Shown here in pieces: positions 2,958 to 18,930 of a stretch of DNA of 31,227 nt. A model generated the notes under the pieces. That model saw only the letters and a list, made by a program, of their open reading frames with translations, searched no databases and was not told the DNA's origin. Location of the stretch: the IMG/VR virus record IMGVR_UViG_3300047550_000903, positions 1 to 31,227 of that record. One strand, given 5' to 3'. A program made the position numbers and the translations under genes. Numbering within the stretch: position 1 is the stretch's first letter; each line of letters opens with the position of its first letter. The DNA is from a virus.

Positions 2958-3275
2958 GTTTGTAGGGTGTGCGCTTTTCCAATATGTTGAGTGCTAAATC
3001 CGTTCTATCAATTAGACTAAGCCATAGTCTATATCCGTATAGCACACCCTACTCATAGATATGGAAATGCCCACTTTGTGCGATCTGTGGGCTGAGATCA
3101 AATAGCCTTGCAACATCTTTGAGAGATTCTCCTTAAAGGAAAAGTCTTGGGGCTACAATGCACGACTGAATTAGTTGCCCGATTTGTGCGCCTTCGGGTC
3201 CGAGATTACAAATGATCAGCATTATATGGAAAAGACTGAGGTACTGATCAGATACACGAATTAATTATATAGCAT
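2958..3275 (+). ncRNA. Gene-free region rich in inverted repeats; candidate structured RNA
   Basis: 318 bases without a convincing ORF, between convergent genes. Perfect inverted repeats are visible: GTAGGGTGTGC (2962-2972) with GCACACCCTAC (3042-3052), 11 bp, enclosing TAGACTA (3013-3019)/TAGTCTA (3025-3031) with loop AGCCA; GCCCAC (3069-3074)/GTGGGC (3087-3092); TAGCC (3103-3107)/GGCTA (3151-3155) enclosing TCCT/AGGA; CCCGA (3178-3182)/TCGGG (3194-3198), or a UUCG tetraloop at 3193-3196; and TGATCAG (3213-3219)/CTGATCA (3244-3250). None is followed by a U-run, so a simple terminator is a poor explanation. It could be a regulatory or packaging RNA, or a 3' UTR structure shared by the two converging operons. 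Strand is a guess, since inverted repeats fold on either. Confidence 0.5.
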
Positions 3276-3524
3276 TCAAGGACAAGTGTAAACATTTCCG
3301 GTAACATTGTCACGCCAAAAACTTGCACGGTTATTGGCACACTTACTTTTTTGATTGGCACGACCAACTGCACCTGCAATGACACCAACTACCACTATGG
3401 TGCCAACTGTAGACAATAATTTTTTATTGTCTACATTACTGGTGTCAACACCATTGACATTACCTATAGTCGCACAACCTGACAGATACAGGACACTTGA
3501 CAGTATTGCGATATTGCGAATCAT
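3276..3524 (-). CDS. Small outer-membrane-type lipoprotein
   Basis: 82 residues with a clear lipoprotein signal: charged start (MIRN), hydrophobic stretch, then lipobox LSGC with the lipidated cysteine at residue 17. A second hydrophobic stretch (VGTIVVVGVIAGAVG, about 42-56) and a C-terminal part with Cys residues follow. The ATG overlaps the stop of the upstream minus-strand gene (ATGA, 3521-3524), so the two are translationally coupled. A lipoprotein expressed with early-type genes suggests superinfection exclusion (as for the T5 Llp type) by analogy; an o-spanin is the alternative, but the protein is not proline-rich and no i-spanin is adjacent. Confidence 0.75.
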   Translation of the reverse strand: MIRNIAILSSVLYLSGCATIGNVNGVDTSNVDNKKLLSTVGTIVVVGVIAGAVGRANQKSKCANNRASFWRDNVTGNVYTCP

Positions 3525-4036
3525 TTTACTAACTCCAAATAAGTGTAAACGCCCTGATCTTTAAGTGCTTGATACTTTGCTTGCCAGATTTTAACTTGCT
3601 TGCGAGTACCTGCGACATAATTTTCAGTTTTTGCGATAGCATGAATCATAGTCTGTGTCATGTCAACATAACCCGGACCTGCATGTACATAGTTAGCAAG
3701 AGCAAGTTTGCGTTGTTTGAGGTCCAAAACTTCTTGTCTAAGCATTGCTTTTAATTTACGGACCATTGCTCTAGTCAAATTTGCTTCAGTAGCAGGTTCG
3801 TTACGGCCTAGAAAATCTTTATTACCTGTGTAATCAGATTTTGTATTGCGAAAGAAATCACGCACACGATGTTTGTAGCCGGGATGTAGACGAGTGCCGA
3901 AATATTTTGGAGCCTTGTTAGCGAAAATATATTCAGCATTAGTAGTGTCAAATGTCTTCCAACCTGTTTCAGGACACTTTTCTAAGTCAAACAAAACGAA
4001 CTTGTATTCTTTAGTAACAATCTTATGATCAAACAT
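3521..4036 (-). CDS. Early-region protein of unknown function, 171 aa
   Basis: Not recognised. The start is set by GAGGTGATTT directly before the ATG, a match to the extended 16S anti-Shine-Dalgarno. The N-terminal part (residues 1-70) is mixed alpha/beta with many aromatic residues (KYFGTRLHPGYKHRVRDFF). The second half is basic and helical (AMVRKLKAMLRQEVLDLKQRKLALANYVHAG). It is driven by its own sigma-70 promoter at 4069-4097 and followed by the coupled lipoprotein gene. The basic helical half may bind nucleic acid, but there is no motif to prove it. Confidence 0.75.
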   Translation of the reverse strand: MFDHKIVTKEYKFVLFDLEKCPETGWKTFDTTNAEYIFANKAPKYFGTRLHPGYKHRVRDFFRNTKSDYTGNKDFLGRNEPATEANLTRAMVRKLKAMLRQEVLDLKQRKLALANYVHAGPGYVDMTQTMIHAIAKTENYVAGTRKQVKIWQAKYQALKDQGVYTYLELVK

Positions 4037-4068
4037 AAATCACCTCAGTCAAGTTAAACAATAATGAT

Positions 4069-4122
4069 AGTATAGCAAACAACAGATCAGATGTCAACAC
4101 CTGATCTGTTGTATTTTTGCTA
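4069..4122 (-). promoter_or_regulatory. Fused terminator-promoter hairpin, copy A
   Basis: On the minus strand a long imperfect stem is formed by TAGCAAA plus CAACAGATCAG pairing with CTGATCTGTTG plus TTTGCTA (plus-strand arms 4073-4090 and 4101-4122, with a 4-base bulge at 4112-4115). The loop holds TTGACA (4092-4097 complement) and TATACT (4069-4074 complement) follows after 17 bases, an ideal sigma-70 promoter for the gene at 3521-4036. The upstream gene stops at 4126, so the same hairpin is placed to end its transcript. Confidence 0.85.
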
Positions 4123-4125
4123 CAT

Positions 4126-4314
4126 TTATTGATTACGCTCACGCCACATTTTAGCACGAATCGTGATCAAGTCACTTAAAATGTCTACGCCGTTTTCTTG
4201 AGCAGTAGAACGATCATAGTGTTCGTCAATATACTTTTGACCTTCATCACTACGAATCCAATCAAGCAATTCTTGTTGAAACTCAAGCACTTTTTGTGAA
4301 TCAGACTTTTTCAT
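4126..4314 (-). CDS. Early-region small protein, 62 aa
   Basis: Not recognised. The protein is largely helical and charged (KVLEFQQELLDWIRSDEGQKYIDEHYD ... LITIRAKMWRERNQ). Its start follows the same GACTGAGGTGATTT leader as its neighbours. It sits alone between two terminator-promoter hairpins, so it is probably a single-gene transcript. Genes of this size and place in phages often encode host-takeover inhibitors, but nothing in the sequence tests that here. Confidence 0.7.
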   Translation of the reverse strand: MKKSDSQKVLEFQQELLDWIRSDEGQKYIDEHYDRSTAQENGVDILSDLITIRAKMWRERNQ

Positions 4315-4346
4315 AAATCACCTCAGTCAAGTTAAACAATAATGAT

Positions 4347-4401
4347 AGTATAGCGTACAACACACACAAAGTCAAGCCTCATGTGTGTTGTATTTTTGCT
4401 A
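4347..4401 (-). promoter_or_regulatory. Fused terminator-promoter hairpin, copy B (different stem)
   Basis: Same layout as copy A but the stem sequence differs: plus-strand TACAACACACA (4356-4366) pairs with TGTGTGTTGTA (4382-4392), and TAGC (4351-4354) with GCTA (4398-4401). The -35 TTGACT (complement of 4370-4375) is in the loop and the -10 TATACT (complement of 4347-4352) is 17 bases away. It lies between the stop at 4404 and the gene starting at 4314. Both arms changed together relative to copies A and C, which is compensatory change. Confidence 0.85.
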
Positions 4402-4403
4402 CA

Positions 4404-4622
4404 TTATTGCATAGCAGCCGGCATTTCTTCGTCCCAAGCATCAAGATCAATAAAACTTAGTGAACTTGGCGAGTCATAAGTCTTAATTACATCATCTAAA
4501 AAAGCCTGAAACTGTTCTTCAGATTGATCCGTAACATAAGTCTTAAGCAATTCACTTTGTTCATTATAAAGTTTAATGATCGTAGTCGTTGCAGTATCTT
4601 CAGCAGTAAACATCAAATTCAT
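4404..4622 (-). CDS. Early-region acidic small protein, 72 aa
   Basis: Not recognised. It is strongly acidic, especially in the second half (DQSEEQFQAFLDDVIKTYDSPSSLSFIDLDAWDEEM). The start follows GACTGAGGTGATTT. It is the first gene of the minus-strand early group, with its own promoter and a hairpin leader upstream. Small acidic early phage proteins are sometimes DNA mimics that inhibit host enzymes; that is only a possibility here. Confidence 0.7.
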   Translation of the reverse strand: MNLMFTAEDTATTTIIKLYNEQSELLKTYVTDQSEEQFQAFLDDVIKTYDSPSSLSFIDLDAWDEEMPAAMQ

Positions 4623-4646
4623 AAATCACCTCAGTCGTTTTAGTTC

Positions 4647-4699
4647 GTAGTCAATATCGACTACAGATACAATTATACAGATATACAGGCCTAAGTCAA
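4647..4699 (-). promoter_or_regulatory. Sigma-70 promoter with 5' UTR hairpin, first minus-strand gene
   Basis: Reading the minus strand: TTGACT (complement of 4694-4699), 16 bases, TATAAT (complement of 4672-4677). Just downstream is a 6-bp hairpin, GTAGTC (4647-4652)/GACTAC (4659-4664), near the expected 5' end of the mRNA. It resembles the GTAGC/GCTAC hairpins in two plus-strand leaders and may stabilise the message. Confidence 0.8.
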
Positions 4700-4720
4700 C
4701 CTCTAAAAATCGTTAAAAAT

Positions 4721-4882
4721 CAACAACTTACAATGCCGGCGTCGTAAGTCATTGATTTATATAGGCTTTTTTTCCGTATTTTTTTACATTTTTTCTGTTG
4801 TATTTTAACAACATCGTAAGTTGTTGATTTATATAGGGTTTTTCCTGAGGCATCGTAAGTTGTTGATTTATATAGGGTTTTT
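4721..4882 (+). repeat. Iteron-like repeats in the divergent control region
   Basis: Two identical 32-bp direct repeats (4812-4843 and 4851-4882, 7-base gap), and a third at 4740-4771 with four mismatches. The core GTAAGTTGTTGATTT is followed by ATATAGGGTTTTT. An inverted partial copy CAACAACTTAC lies at 4721-4731. The surroundings are very AT-rich, with a TGTTGT/ACAACA hairpin at 4796-4813. Placement between divergent early promoters fits a replication origin with iterons, or operator sites for a phage regulator such as the protein at 5326-5526. The TATAGGG end also recalls single-subunit RNA polymerase promoters, but no such polymerase is seen. Confidence 0.75.
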
Positions 4883-4922
4883 ATTGTTGCGAAAATACAA
4901 CGAAAAAAAGTTGAAAAAACGC

Positions 4923-4974
4923 TTGACATTGCCCCTGTCTTTTAGTAATATAGTCAATGTAGCAAGTTCGCTAC
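4923..4974 (+). promoter_or_regulatory. Sigma-70 promoter with 5' UTR hairpin, first plus-strand gene
   Basis: TTGACA (4923-4928), 17 bases, TAATAT (4946-4951), then the hairpin GTAGC (4959-4963)/GCTAC (4970-4974). It drives the gene starting at 4997. The same arrangement recurs at 5523-5574. Confidence 0.85.
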
Positions 4975-4996
4975 GACATTTGACTGAGAGACAATT

Positions 4997-5230
4997 ATGA
5001 ACTATGTTTATTACGGCATGACTTTTGCGGGCAACAAACAGTTTCGTGACAACATCATGCAACAAGATGAATTTGTTGCAAAATATGGCAAGCCCAATGC
5101 TAACGGTTGGGTCAAAATCAATGACGAACTGTACAATGTATATTTGATGAATTTTTCATTACATGAAACTATGAAGTTTGCTGTACAGTATCGTGAATTG
5201 TTCATCAGTAATGGATTTACTGAAATCTAA
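4997..5230 (+). CDS. Early-region small protein, 77 aa
   Basis: Not recognised. It starts after GACTGAGAGACAATT and lies alone between a promoter and a terminator-promoter hairpin. The protein is rich in aromatic residues and Asn (MNYVYYGMTF, GKPNANGWVKINDELYNVYLMNF) with no TM segment or known motif. Its separate strong promoter suggests high early expression. Confidence 0.7.
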   Translation: MNYVYYGMTFAGNKQFRDNIMQQDEFVAKYGKPNANGWVKINDELYNVYLMNFSLHETMKFAVQYRELFISNGFTEI

Positions 5231-5232
5231 TG

Positions 5233-5286
5233 TAGCAAAAATACAACAGATCAGGTATTGACATCTGATCTGTTGTTTGCTATACT
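5233..5286 (+). promoter_or_regulatory. Fused terminator-promoter hairpin, copy C
   Basis: Plus-strand twin of copy A. TAGCAAA (5233-5239) and CAACAGATCAG (5244-5254) pair with CTGATCTGTTG (5265-5275) and TTTGCTA (5276-5282). TTGACA (5258-5263) is in the loop and TATACT (5281-5286) follows after 17 bases. It starts one base after the stop codon region of the gene ending at 5230 and drives the gene at 5326. Confidence 0.88.
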
Positions 5287-5325
5287 ATCTATGTTGAGTT
5301 GATAAACAAACTGACTGAGGTAATT

Positions 5326-5526
5326 ATGTCAAAATATGTGAAAAAAAATGCATATGTAAGTCATAAAGACAAACTAGAAGGCCAAACTGTTATATATTGG
5401 GCCAAACATTACAAAGTGTCCAAACAGCGCATCTATCAACGATTAGAACAATGGGGCACGGTCCATTATTCTGAAAGGCCCCCGGGTCGTCCCAAAAAAA
5501 TTATTATAGAGCATACAAAGGCTTGA
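5326..5526 (+). CDS. Small HTH DNA-binding protein with AT-hook-like tail
   Basis: 66 residues from the ATG at 5326, which follows GACTGAGGTAATT; a TTG at 5299 is in frame but lacks a ribosome site. Residues about 27-47 (VIYWAKHYKVSKQRIYQRLEQWG) fit a helix-turn-helix of the MerR/excisionase or DNA-invertase kind. The basic tail has PPGRPKKI, an AT-hook-like GRP core. The protein is basic overall. It is a good candidate to regulate the early promoters or bind the iterons at 4740-4882. Its stop codon TGA lies inside the -35 box of the next promoter. Confidence 0.75.
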   Translation: MSKYVKKNAYVSHKDKLEGQTVIYWAKHYKVSKQRIYQRLEQWGTVHYSERPPGRPKKIIIEHTKA

Positions 5527-5574
5527 CATCTGATCTGTTTTTTGTTAATATATGTACTGTAGCAATGTCGCTAC
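5523..5574 (+). promoter_or_regulatory. Sigma-70 promoter with 5' UTR hairpin, third plus-strand gene
   Basis: TTGACA (5523-5528), 17 bases, TAATAT (5546-5551), then GTAGC (5559-5563)/GCTAC (5570-5574). The spacer keeps the CTGATCTGTT arm of copies A and C but has lost the other arm, so no terminator hairpin forms here. Confidence 0.85.
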
Positions 5575-5597
5575 GAATTTGATGACTGAGGTGATTT

Positions 5598-5795
5598 ATG
5601 TTTGCTAATCGTTCTATGTATATCGATCTTGATAATGACGAGTTGATTGATCGCATGAGCATGTTACATGCTGAACTTGACGGCGATCTTGATGACACTA
5701 ACGACAATGTTAGTTATGTGCTTGACAACATCGAATGCATCGTTGACATTTTGCGTGAGCGTGTCAACGAAGCAAATAGTGAAGATATAGAATAA
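5598..5795 (+). CDS. Early-region very acidic small protein, 65 aa
   Basis: Not recognised. It starts after GACTGAGGTGATTT, identical to the leaders of the minus-strand early genes. It is very acidic (DLDNDELID ... ELDGDLDDTNDN ... VNEANSEDIE) and predicted helical. A DNA-mimic or inhibitor role is possible by composition only. Confidence 0.7.
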   Translation: MFANRSMYIDLDNDELIDRMSMLHAELDGDLDDTNDNVSYVLDNIECIVDILRERVNEANSEDIE

Positions 5796-5804
5796 GTATC
5801 TCCT

Positions 5805-5858
5805 GCGCAATTAACAATCAACAACACTCTTGGTCCGTAGTGTGCGCTCAAACGGACC
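5805..5858 (+). terminator. Hairpin(s) after early genes; possible terminator or attenuator
   Basis: GGTCCGT (5832-5838) pairs with ACGGACC (5852-5858), 7 bp, followed by a T-rich stretch (GTCTTATTCATTTT). A competing fold pairs ACACT (5824-5828) with AGTGT (5839-5843), and GCGCA (5805-5809) can pair with TGCGC (5843-5847). The alternatives are mutually exclusive, as in attenuators, but this is not proof of one. Confidence 0.45.
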
Positions 5859-5885
5859 GTCTTATTCATTTTGGTAAATAAGTGT

Positions 5886-7109: not shown

Positions 7110-7196
7110 CTCTTATTGACATTTGAGAACATCTCCTAATGTACCAACAGACTGCCCATTTTTAGCGAGTGGGCAGTCATCTTACGCTAATAAGAG
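7110..7196 (+). ncRNA. Candidate three-way-junction RNA in leader of 7260 operon
   Basis: CTCTTATT (7110-7117) pairs with AATAAGAG (7189-7196) and closes two inner hairpins: ACATT (7119-7123)/AATGT (7138-7142) with a nested GAGA/TCTC, and the 9-bp GACTGCCCA (7150-7158)/TGGGCAGTC (7170-7178). All three helices are perfect and nest without conflict. It may be a cis-regulatory leader or a separate RNA. It does not resemble a riboswitch I recognise. Confidence 0.5.
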
Positions 7197-18387: not shown

Positions 18388-18930
18388 ATGGCATACATTA
18401 CAGTAAACGAGACAGGTACTTTCCCTGCGCTTATACTGTCAACTGATATTGCTAATCTTGCAAACAACTTCACTAGCACCGGTAATCTACCAGCAAGTGC
18501 TAACGCAGGTTCACTATTAAATGTGACTTGCTTGCAAGATGTGACTGTGACTAACAGTACTGGTATCTTTAGTTGGACAGATTTCTGTTCAGCAAGTATC
18601 AACAAGGTCACTACGCCAAGCGACAACGAGATTAGCACTAACATTGTAATTGACGATGAAGGATTCTTTGGAGATTCAGCGGCAGCAAACACTTCAGCCA
18701 ATTATCAAGGTGTTTCTGGATTGAGTCAGAATCGCATCGAAGTCGCATTTAGACTACAGTTGAACAACAGCGCCAATGTCGGAGCAAATACTCCTGCTAA
18801 CACTTTCTTCTATTGCGGAAAAGGTTACTTGAGTTCAGTTGCACCAACAGCGTCACCCGACAGCCCTGTGTGGGTCTCACCACTCACAATCGCTGTCAAT
18901 GGCGACATGGGTTCTGGACCTAAGGTCTAA
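18388..18930 (+). CDS. Major tail tube protein
   Basis: 180 residues with a very good ribosome site (AAGGAGATTATAAA). All beta in character, Ser/Asn/Ala/Gly rich, with Ig-like strand spacing. It is followed by a strong terminator (18938-18969), as often seen after highly expressed tail tube genes. It should polymerise around the tape measure to form the tail tube. Confidence 0.8.
   Translation: MAYITVNETGTFPALILSTDIANLANNFTSTGNLPASANAGSLLNVTCLQDVTVTNSTGIFSWTDFCSASINKVTTPSDNEISTNIVIDDEGFFGDSAAANTSANYQGVSGLSQNRIEVAFRLQLNNSANVGANTPANTFFYCGKGYLSSVAPTASPDSPVWVSPLTIAVNGDMGSGPKV

Follow-up and report, generated by a model that had tools for sequence, protein, structure and literature searches.

Hairpin-enclosed promoters at the borders of small genes in a group of tailed phages

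Predicted promoters lying in the gaps between co-directional genes of one phage group were mostly enclosed by a stem, whereas promoters located elsewhere were not. Promoters were gathered by their hexamers alone and then classed by upstream context, a stem being counted when at least 7 bp enclosed the −35 box. An enclosing stem was present at 30 of the 35 promoters located 7–60 bases downstream of a co-directional gene and at none (0 of 35) of the rest (Fisher 1.2e-14, a value uncorrected for relatedness); the ORFs came from a home-made caller, and individual placement assignments may be wrong. Of these 35 others, 18 stand at the opening of a divergent cluster, 11 have a −35 box that overlaps or touches the preceding stop codon, and 6 are far from genes. 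One of the five exceptions among the gap promoters, at 4699 (−) of the window, is a first promoter misfiled through a spurious ORF (4720–4929). This placement rule is the main new result, and it supports the dual role proposed by a first-pass annotation of the DNA, in which the hairpin serves the 3' end of the preceding gene as well as the next promoter. With moderate confidence, we consider each element to be a host-type sigma-70 promoter of the next gene combined with an RNA hairpin acting at the 3' end of the message before it.

The window, that is, the whole stretch of DNA analysed, is 31,227 bases long and constitutes a complete IMG/VR record. It comes from a tailed phage that encodes a tape measure protein of lambda type and a terminase assigned to Terminase_6N, and its isolate relatives are only distant (terminase identity of ca. 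27%). A near-identity search of GenBank phages gave no match to the window, no host or prophage emerged when bacterial and archaeal genomes were searched with the terminase, and the Rfam and tRNA searches of the window returned nothing. Two divergent clusters of small genes at 3.2–5.8 kb point away from a non-coding centre, the leftward cluster having four genes (3276–4622) and the rightward cluster three (4997–5795). The region is presumed to be early, as judged only from its host-type promoters and its small, variable genes. The pattern TGTAGCAAAAATACAACA-N6..30-TGTTGTNNGCTATACT matched the window at exactly three sites, all in these clusters, and no match was expected from shuffles. The three elements (A, B, and C), the neighbouring genes, and the promoters without a full hairpin are as follows.

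3521–4036, − strand: gene of 171 aa with element A as its predicted promoter; member of family F19, which L162 and L344 carry next to different genes.
4069–4124, − strand: element A, between genes 4126–4314 (−) and 3521–4036 (−); arms 4112–4101 and 4090–4079; −35 box TTGACA at 4097–4092 in the loop; −10 box TATACT at 4074–4069.
4126–4314, − strand: gene of 62 aa with element B as its predicted promoter; member of family F27, which L173 carries too.
4347–4403, − strand: element B, between genes 4404–4622 (−) and 4126–4314 (−); arms 4392–4382 and 4366–4356; −35 box TTGACT at 4375–4370 in the loop; −10 box at 4352–4347.
4404–4622, − strand: gene of 72 aa, first of the leftward cluster.
4672–4699, − strand: first promoter of the leftward cluster, hairpinless.
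4923–4951, + strand: first promoter of the rightward cluster, hairpinless; AAAATACAAC upstream motif at 4892–4901.
4997–5230, + strand: gene of 77 aa, first of the rightward cluster.
5231–5286, + strand: element C, between genes 4997–5230 (+) and 5326–5526 (+); arms 5243–5254 and 5265–5276; −35 box TTGACA at 5258–5263 in the loop; −10 box TATACT at 5281–5286.
5326–5526, + strand: gene of 66 aa, predicted to be read from element C; short helix-turn-helix (HTH) look by eye; no family hit.
5523–5551, + strand: half element, TTGACA-17-TAATAT, with the same 3' arm/spacer (ATCTGATCTGTT) and no 5' arm.
5598–5795, + strand: gene of 65 aa with the half element at 5523 as its predicted promoter; member of family F45, which L325, L327, L328, and L339 carry next to different genes.

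Each element starts 0–1 bases past the TAA of the preceding co-directional gene (5228–5230, +; 4126–4128, −; 4404–4406, −), and elements are present on both arms of the divergent region. Toward the next gene, the stop codon is followed by TGTAGCAAAAAT, the left arm, a loop with TTGAC[A/T], the right arm filling the 17-bp spacer, the −10 box TATACT at the 3' base of the stem, a leader of 30–40 bases, a ribosome site, and ATG. The hexamer pairs are TTGACA-17-TATACT in two elements and TTGACT-17-TATACT in one. The stem of 11–12 bp is ACAACAGATCAG/CTGATCTGTTGT in two copies and TACAACACACA/TGTGTGTTGTA in element B. The three hairpins were thus as first described, behind stop codons with the −35 box in the loop and 17-base spacing. 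The outer TAGCAAA/TTTGCTA pairing, which brings the −10 box into the helix, is much weaker: in relatives, 72% of its cells were paired vs 98% for the inner helix. This outer stem was dropped as a conserved part, since it is poorly kept in relatives, and it is mostly a by-product of the extended −10 box and the upstream A-tract.

Since both arms lie upstream of the predicted start site, it follows directly, given a normal start 6–8 bases after the −10 box, that the message of the embedded promoter would never contain the hairpin, which only read-through RNA from upstream would carry. Under the promoter-plus-hairpin model, a polymerase exiting the upstream gene would transcribe both arms, and the hairpin would form in this read-through RNA only. 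It would then end the upstream transcript, or define or protect its 3' end, while the embedded promoter, starting downstream of both arms, would give a hairpin-free and unaffected message. The outcome would be a chain of single-gene units whose stop-to-start borders are near-identical DNA and could be shuffled by recombination.

The sample of relatives consisted of eighty terminase-relative loci, the pattern hits, and the missing stretches of long records; most relatives are fragments. These sequences were scanned for promoters whose −35 box is enclosed by a stem. With reversed hexamers as a control, the scan gave 41 hits vs 64 real ones, and the raw scan alone is therefore weak evidence. The loose pattern ATACAACA..TTGAC..TGTTGT gave many chance matches among the matches listed. 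The same architecture was found in at least 12 records of one terminase-related phage group, in two families of stem sequence. In family I (the window, L031, L050, L104, L146, L174, and L344), the outer arms are ATACAACA/TGTTGTAT and the inner pairs vary; L344 and L130 come from one record, and the L130 terminase is 96% identical to that of the window. Family II has AGCACAGRR/YYCTGTGCT with the spacer AATAAATCA (L173, L325, L326/L339, L327, L328, and L330, with a variant in L340). The window carries 3 copies and L173 about 7.

Covariation was evident in both families. Of the cells of family I (12 sequences), 95% were paired, five pairs had changed on both sides, and double-change cells numbered 20 against 7.3 expected (0 of 500 shuffles), while slid controls were only 21–60% paired. 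In family II (25 sequences), 93% were paired, and double changes were present in 13 cells where 3.5 were expected (0 of 500 shuffles); in both sets the sequences are mutually related, so that the double changes are not independent events. Since several distinct stem types occur (GATCAG, CACACA, CATACAG, CATATA, and CACATG), paired change must have happened repeatedly. These observations support the earlier suggestion that the stem pairing is under selection. Where one strand can form a G·U pair, its complement has an A·C mismatch, and the non-Watson–Crick cells on the promoter strand were divided G·T:A·C as 13:2 in family I and 8:5 in family II. The G·T share was above that of column-preserving shuffles (P of 0.002 and 0.0004 in families I and II, from small samples and with kinship ignored). 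The same ratio for the first inner mismatch alone was uninformative against its column composition, and the alignment-wide version was used. The bias, which we take as supportive only, points to folding of RNA transcribed in the gene direction.

The inverted repeat might instead be a DNA operator, as the first-pass annotation had offered in the alternative, with a phage or host regulator binding both arms and covering the promoter. The outer arms of family I (ACAACA/TGTTGT) are almost invariant, the gene immediately downstream of element C encodes the small HTH-like protein, and a similar inverted-repeat promoter of ca. 47 bp in cluster K mycobacteriophages, the extended start-associated sequence (ESAS), is read as a DNA-binding site (PMC3203893, PMC11373665). 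Since a repressor site would be expected at cluster-opening promoters too and a 3'-end device would not, the placement rule favours the 3'-end role; the cluster-opening and stop-overlapping promoters of the same clusters lack the dyad, and no one binding sequence recurs at all co-regulated promoters. Besides, the inner arms differ among copies of one genome with pairing kept, and the HTH-like protein had no homologue in the 29 other loci of the group. In line with a role in RNA, the mean z of RNA folding was about −4.7 for in-gap sites, −0.1 for first promoters, and −0.5 for stop-overlapping promoters. We regard the operator as unlikely, and a hairpin in the read-through message, taking part in 3'-end formation of the upstream gene, would fit better than a repressor dyad. 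Taken together, placement, covariation, and strand-specific wobble make up a comparative test that tells an operator from an RNA function without experimental work.

The elements share with an intrinsic terminator a stable predicted RNA hairpin right after the upstream stop codon, but they have no convincing co-directional U-tract, and the bases downstream serve as the −10 box. Canonical intrinsic termination requires a U-tract after the 3' arm. Here this tract was weak (mean tail score of 1.98), the T-run on the opposite strand being better (2.61); tail scores were 2.2–3.1 in family I copies and about 1.3–1.8 in family II, where the bases after the 3' arm read AUACUAUC or ACAAUGAU. The combination of a GC-rich hairpin and an immediate U-tract was not seen in the elements, and a standard terminator scan of the window did not call their sites. 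Such a weak U-tract in the gene direction makes canonical intrinsic termination doubtful and raises the concrete question of how transcripts end at the elements. Strong intergenic hairpins with poor U-tracts also occur in the window at 7150–7178 and 5831–5859 (GACTGCCCATTT/GAGTGGGCAGTC; TGGTCCGT/ACGGACCG), and given these, the host may be tolerant of such hairpins.

A processing or 3'-stabilising structure in the read-through RNA, rather than a terminator, would agree with the strong fold, the site right after the stop codon, and the poor U-tract. Loops of 8–17 bases and short AU-rich stems, as present in the elements, are however atypical of double-strand RNase substrates, and we give this reading a low probability. 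Little confidence is also placed in a U-tract-free self-insulation, in which the nascent hairpin would stall the incoming polymerase over the next promoter and release would need both the hairpin and a bound polymerase. If true, such stalling at an occupied promoter would mean that the active downstream promoter itself terminates the upstream message, a distinct termination mode common to this group and perhaps to the U-tract-less hairpin promoters of phage RB49.

The better T-run raises a further reading, that the element is an opposite-strand or bidirectional terminator shielding the genes from convergent transcription. Family I reads as a stem followed by TGTTGTATTTTTGCTA on that strand, and in the window the structural genes point toward the leftward cluster. 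However, the T-run is poorer in family II copies, the non-Watson–Crick bias favours the other strand, and elements also stand where convergent genes are absent (5231–5286). The A-tract behind the T-run is, moreover, kept at hairpinless first promoters (e.g. 4892–4901; L344 and L174), which argues for a promoter-side function, probably as an UP-like element. We consider the opposite-strand terminator very improbable.

Composite promoter-terminator motifs of this general kind, which mediate modular shuffling, are described for T4-like phages as PeSL (promoter-early stem-loop) in the titles of the papers concerned (Arbiol et al. 2010; Comeau et al.; both cited in PMC4503421). Here too, a repeated sigma-70-type promoter is fused to a stem-loop in one short intergenic motif, with several copies between small, variable genes of unknown function, and gene shuffling occurs around the repeats in both systems. 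According to Arbiol et al. (2010), PeSL stem-loops reportedly terminate effectively. Our scan of RB49 gave several hairpin-promoter overlaps, and the copy at 18532 (−) has the same geometry, with the stem ATAGGGG/CCCCTAT, the −35 box in the loop, and the −10 box at the 3' base. Other RB49 copies have a strong terminator with a T-run upstream of the −35 box, a spacer hairpin, or the −10 box in the loop, whereas one geometry dominates in the present elements and their U-tract is weak. RB49 (L356) early promoters at 36985, 38220, 39130, 42355, 43031, and 3201 have the −10 box in a hairpin loop or a spacer hairpin, and no U-tract. The present group, with its lambda-type tape measure, Terminase_6N, and no near isolate, is distant from T4-like myoviruses, and neither membership in these nor common descent with the RB49 motifs was found. 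The element would therefore resemble PeSL in function, by analogy and with no descent from the RB49 motifs implied. No PeSL-like element was reported for this phage group in the literature searched. Fused promoter-hairpin borders like those of T4-like phages thus also occur in a distant group, and the first-pass statement that the arrangement is not a named element is only partly right, the PeSL motifs being known.

The ESAS of cluster K, a repeated intergenic element of ca. 47 bp next to a conserved start-codon leader, have inverted repeats around a SigA promoter with 17–18 spacing (PMC11373665). They resemble the present elements as repeated intergenic inverted-repeat promoters. In Adephagia, however, TTGACA is inside the left arm, as opposed to the loop here, and the ESAS authors found no support for RNA pairing in the departures within the arms (PMC3203893), unlike the covarying pairing of our elements. 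Neither hexamers within arms nor arms at odds with RNA pairing were found here.

When neighbouring small proteins were clustered into families, the same families (F19, F27, F45, F02, and F14) recurred beside elements in differing orders. F45 comes after F66 in the window, F50 in L327, F02 in L328, and F14 in L339; F19 comes after F27 in the window and F53 in L344, and opens the cluster in L162; F27 comes after F67 in the window and F02 in L173. Cassettes bordered by shared sequence would permit such orders. A protein search with the 171-aa gene gave no viral relative at the sensitivity used. Gene shuffling between elements, together with the perfect arms, would also suit a hairpin that is a by-product, either of duplicated promoter cassettes kept as recombination sites or of a DNA cruciform switch. 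Recombination alone explains neither the covariation with sense-strand wobble nor the placement rule, and G·T pairs would weaken a cruciform; we give this reading hardly any weight. If the promoter-plus-hairpin model is confirmed, it would explain how small accessory genes are swapped singly with correct expression kept, and the elements would be short parts for single-gene insulation.

The layout and the recurring gene families support the proposed single-gene units, but the promoters at 5523, 4699, and 4923 lack the full hairpin. The TGA stop of gene 5326–5526 shares bases with the −35 box of the half element at 5523 (+), and since such overlapping promoters have no hairpin, insulation would not be obligatory. 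Stop-overlapping promoters (window 5523, L031 1004, and L174 3605) keep the 3' arm sequence and lack the 5' arm, and the promoter itself therefore probably does not need the hairpin.

The AAAATACAAC motif lies ca. 10 or 20–21 bases upstream of the −35 box at hairpin and hairpinless promoters alike, often inside a GTTG-N8-CAAC dyad (4892–4901 and 5236–5247; relatives L344, L174, L162, and L173), and is possibly an UP-like element. Viral contigs scanned with TAGCAAAAATACAACA alone were mostly unrelated sequences, several with promoters behind the motif, and TAGCAAAAATACAACA also precedes sigma-70-like promoters in contigs of no known relatedness (e.g. L008, L025, L027, and L089). A TACAACA/TGTTGTA stem around a −35 box before a gene was seen in other viral contigs (L226 8530, L274 605, L281 840, L234 4668, and L298 1002).

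The hairpinless promoters at 4923 and 5523 have a small 5' leader hairpin, GTAGC-N6-GCTAC (4959–4974 and 5559–5574), which the leaders CTGTAGCAATG and AATGTAGCGATG in L344, L174, and L146 resemble. A common leader, GACTGAGGTGATTTATG with the single variant GACTGAGGTAATTATG, accompanies the start codons of the small genes at 4034–4051, 4312–4329, 4620–4636, 5313–5328, and 5583–5600; it extends beyond a ribosome site and recalls the start-associated sequences in mycobacteriophages of cluster K. The long non-coding convergent region at 2958–3275, which had no match in Rfam, contains an inverted repeat GTAGGGTGTGC/GCACACCCTAC spanning ca. 90 bases. Three direct repeats of ca. 32 bases (CATCGTAAGTTGTTGATTTATATAGGGTTTTT), two of them identical, occupy the divergent non-coding centre (4740–4882) and are a possible origin or regulator site; TAAGTTGTTGATTT stretches resembling them precede the first promoters in L146, L031, and L050.
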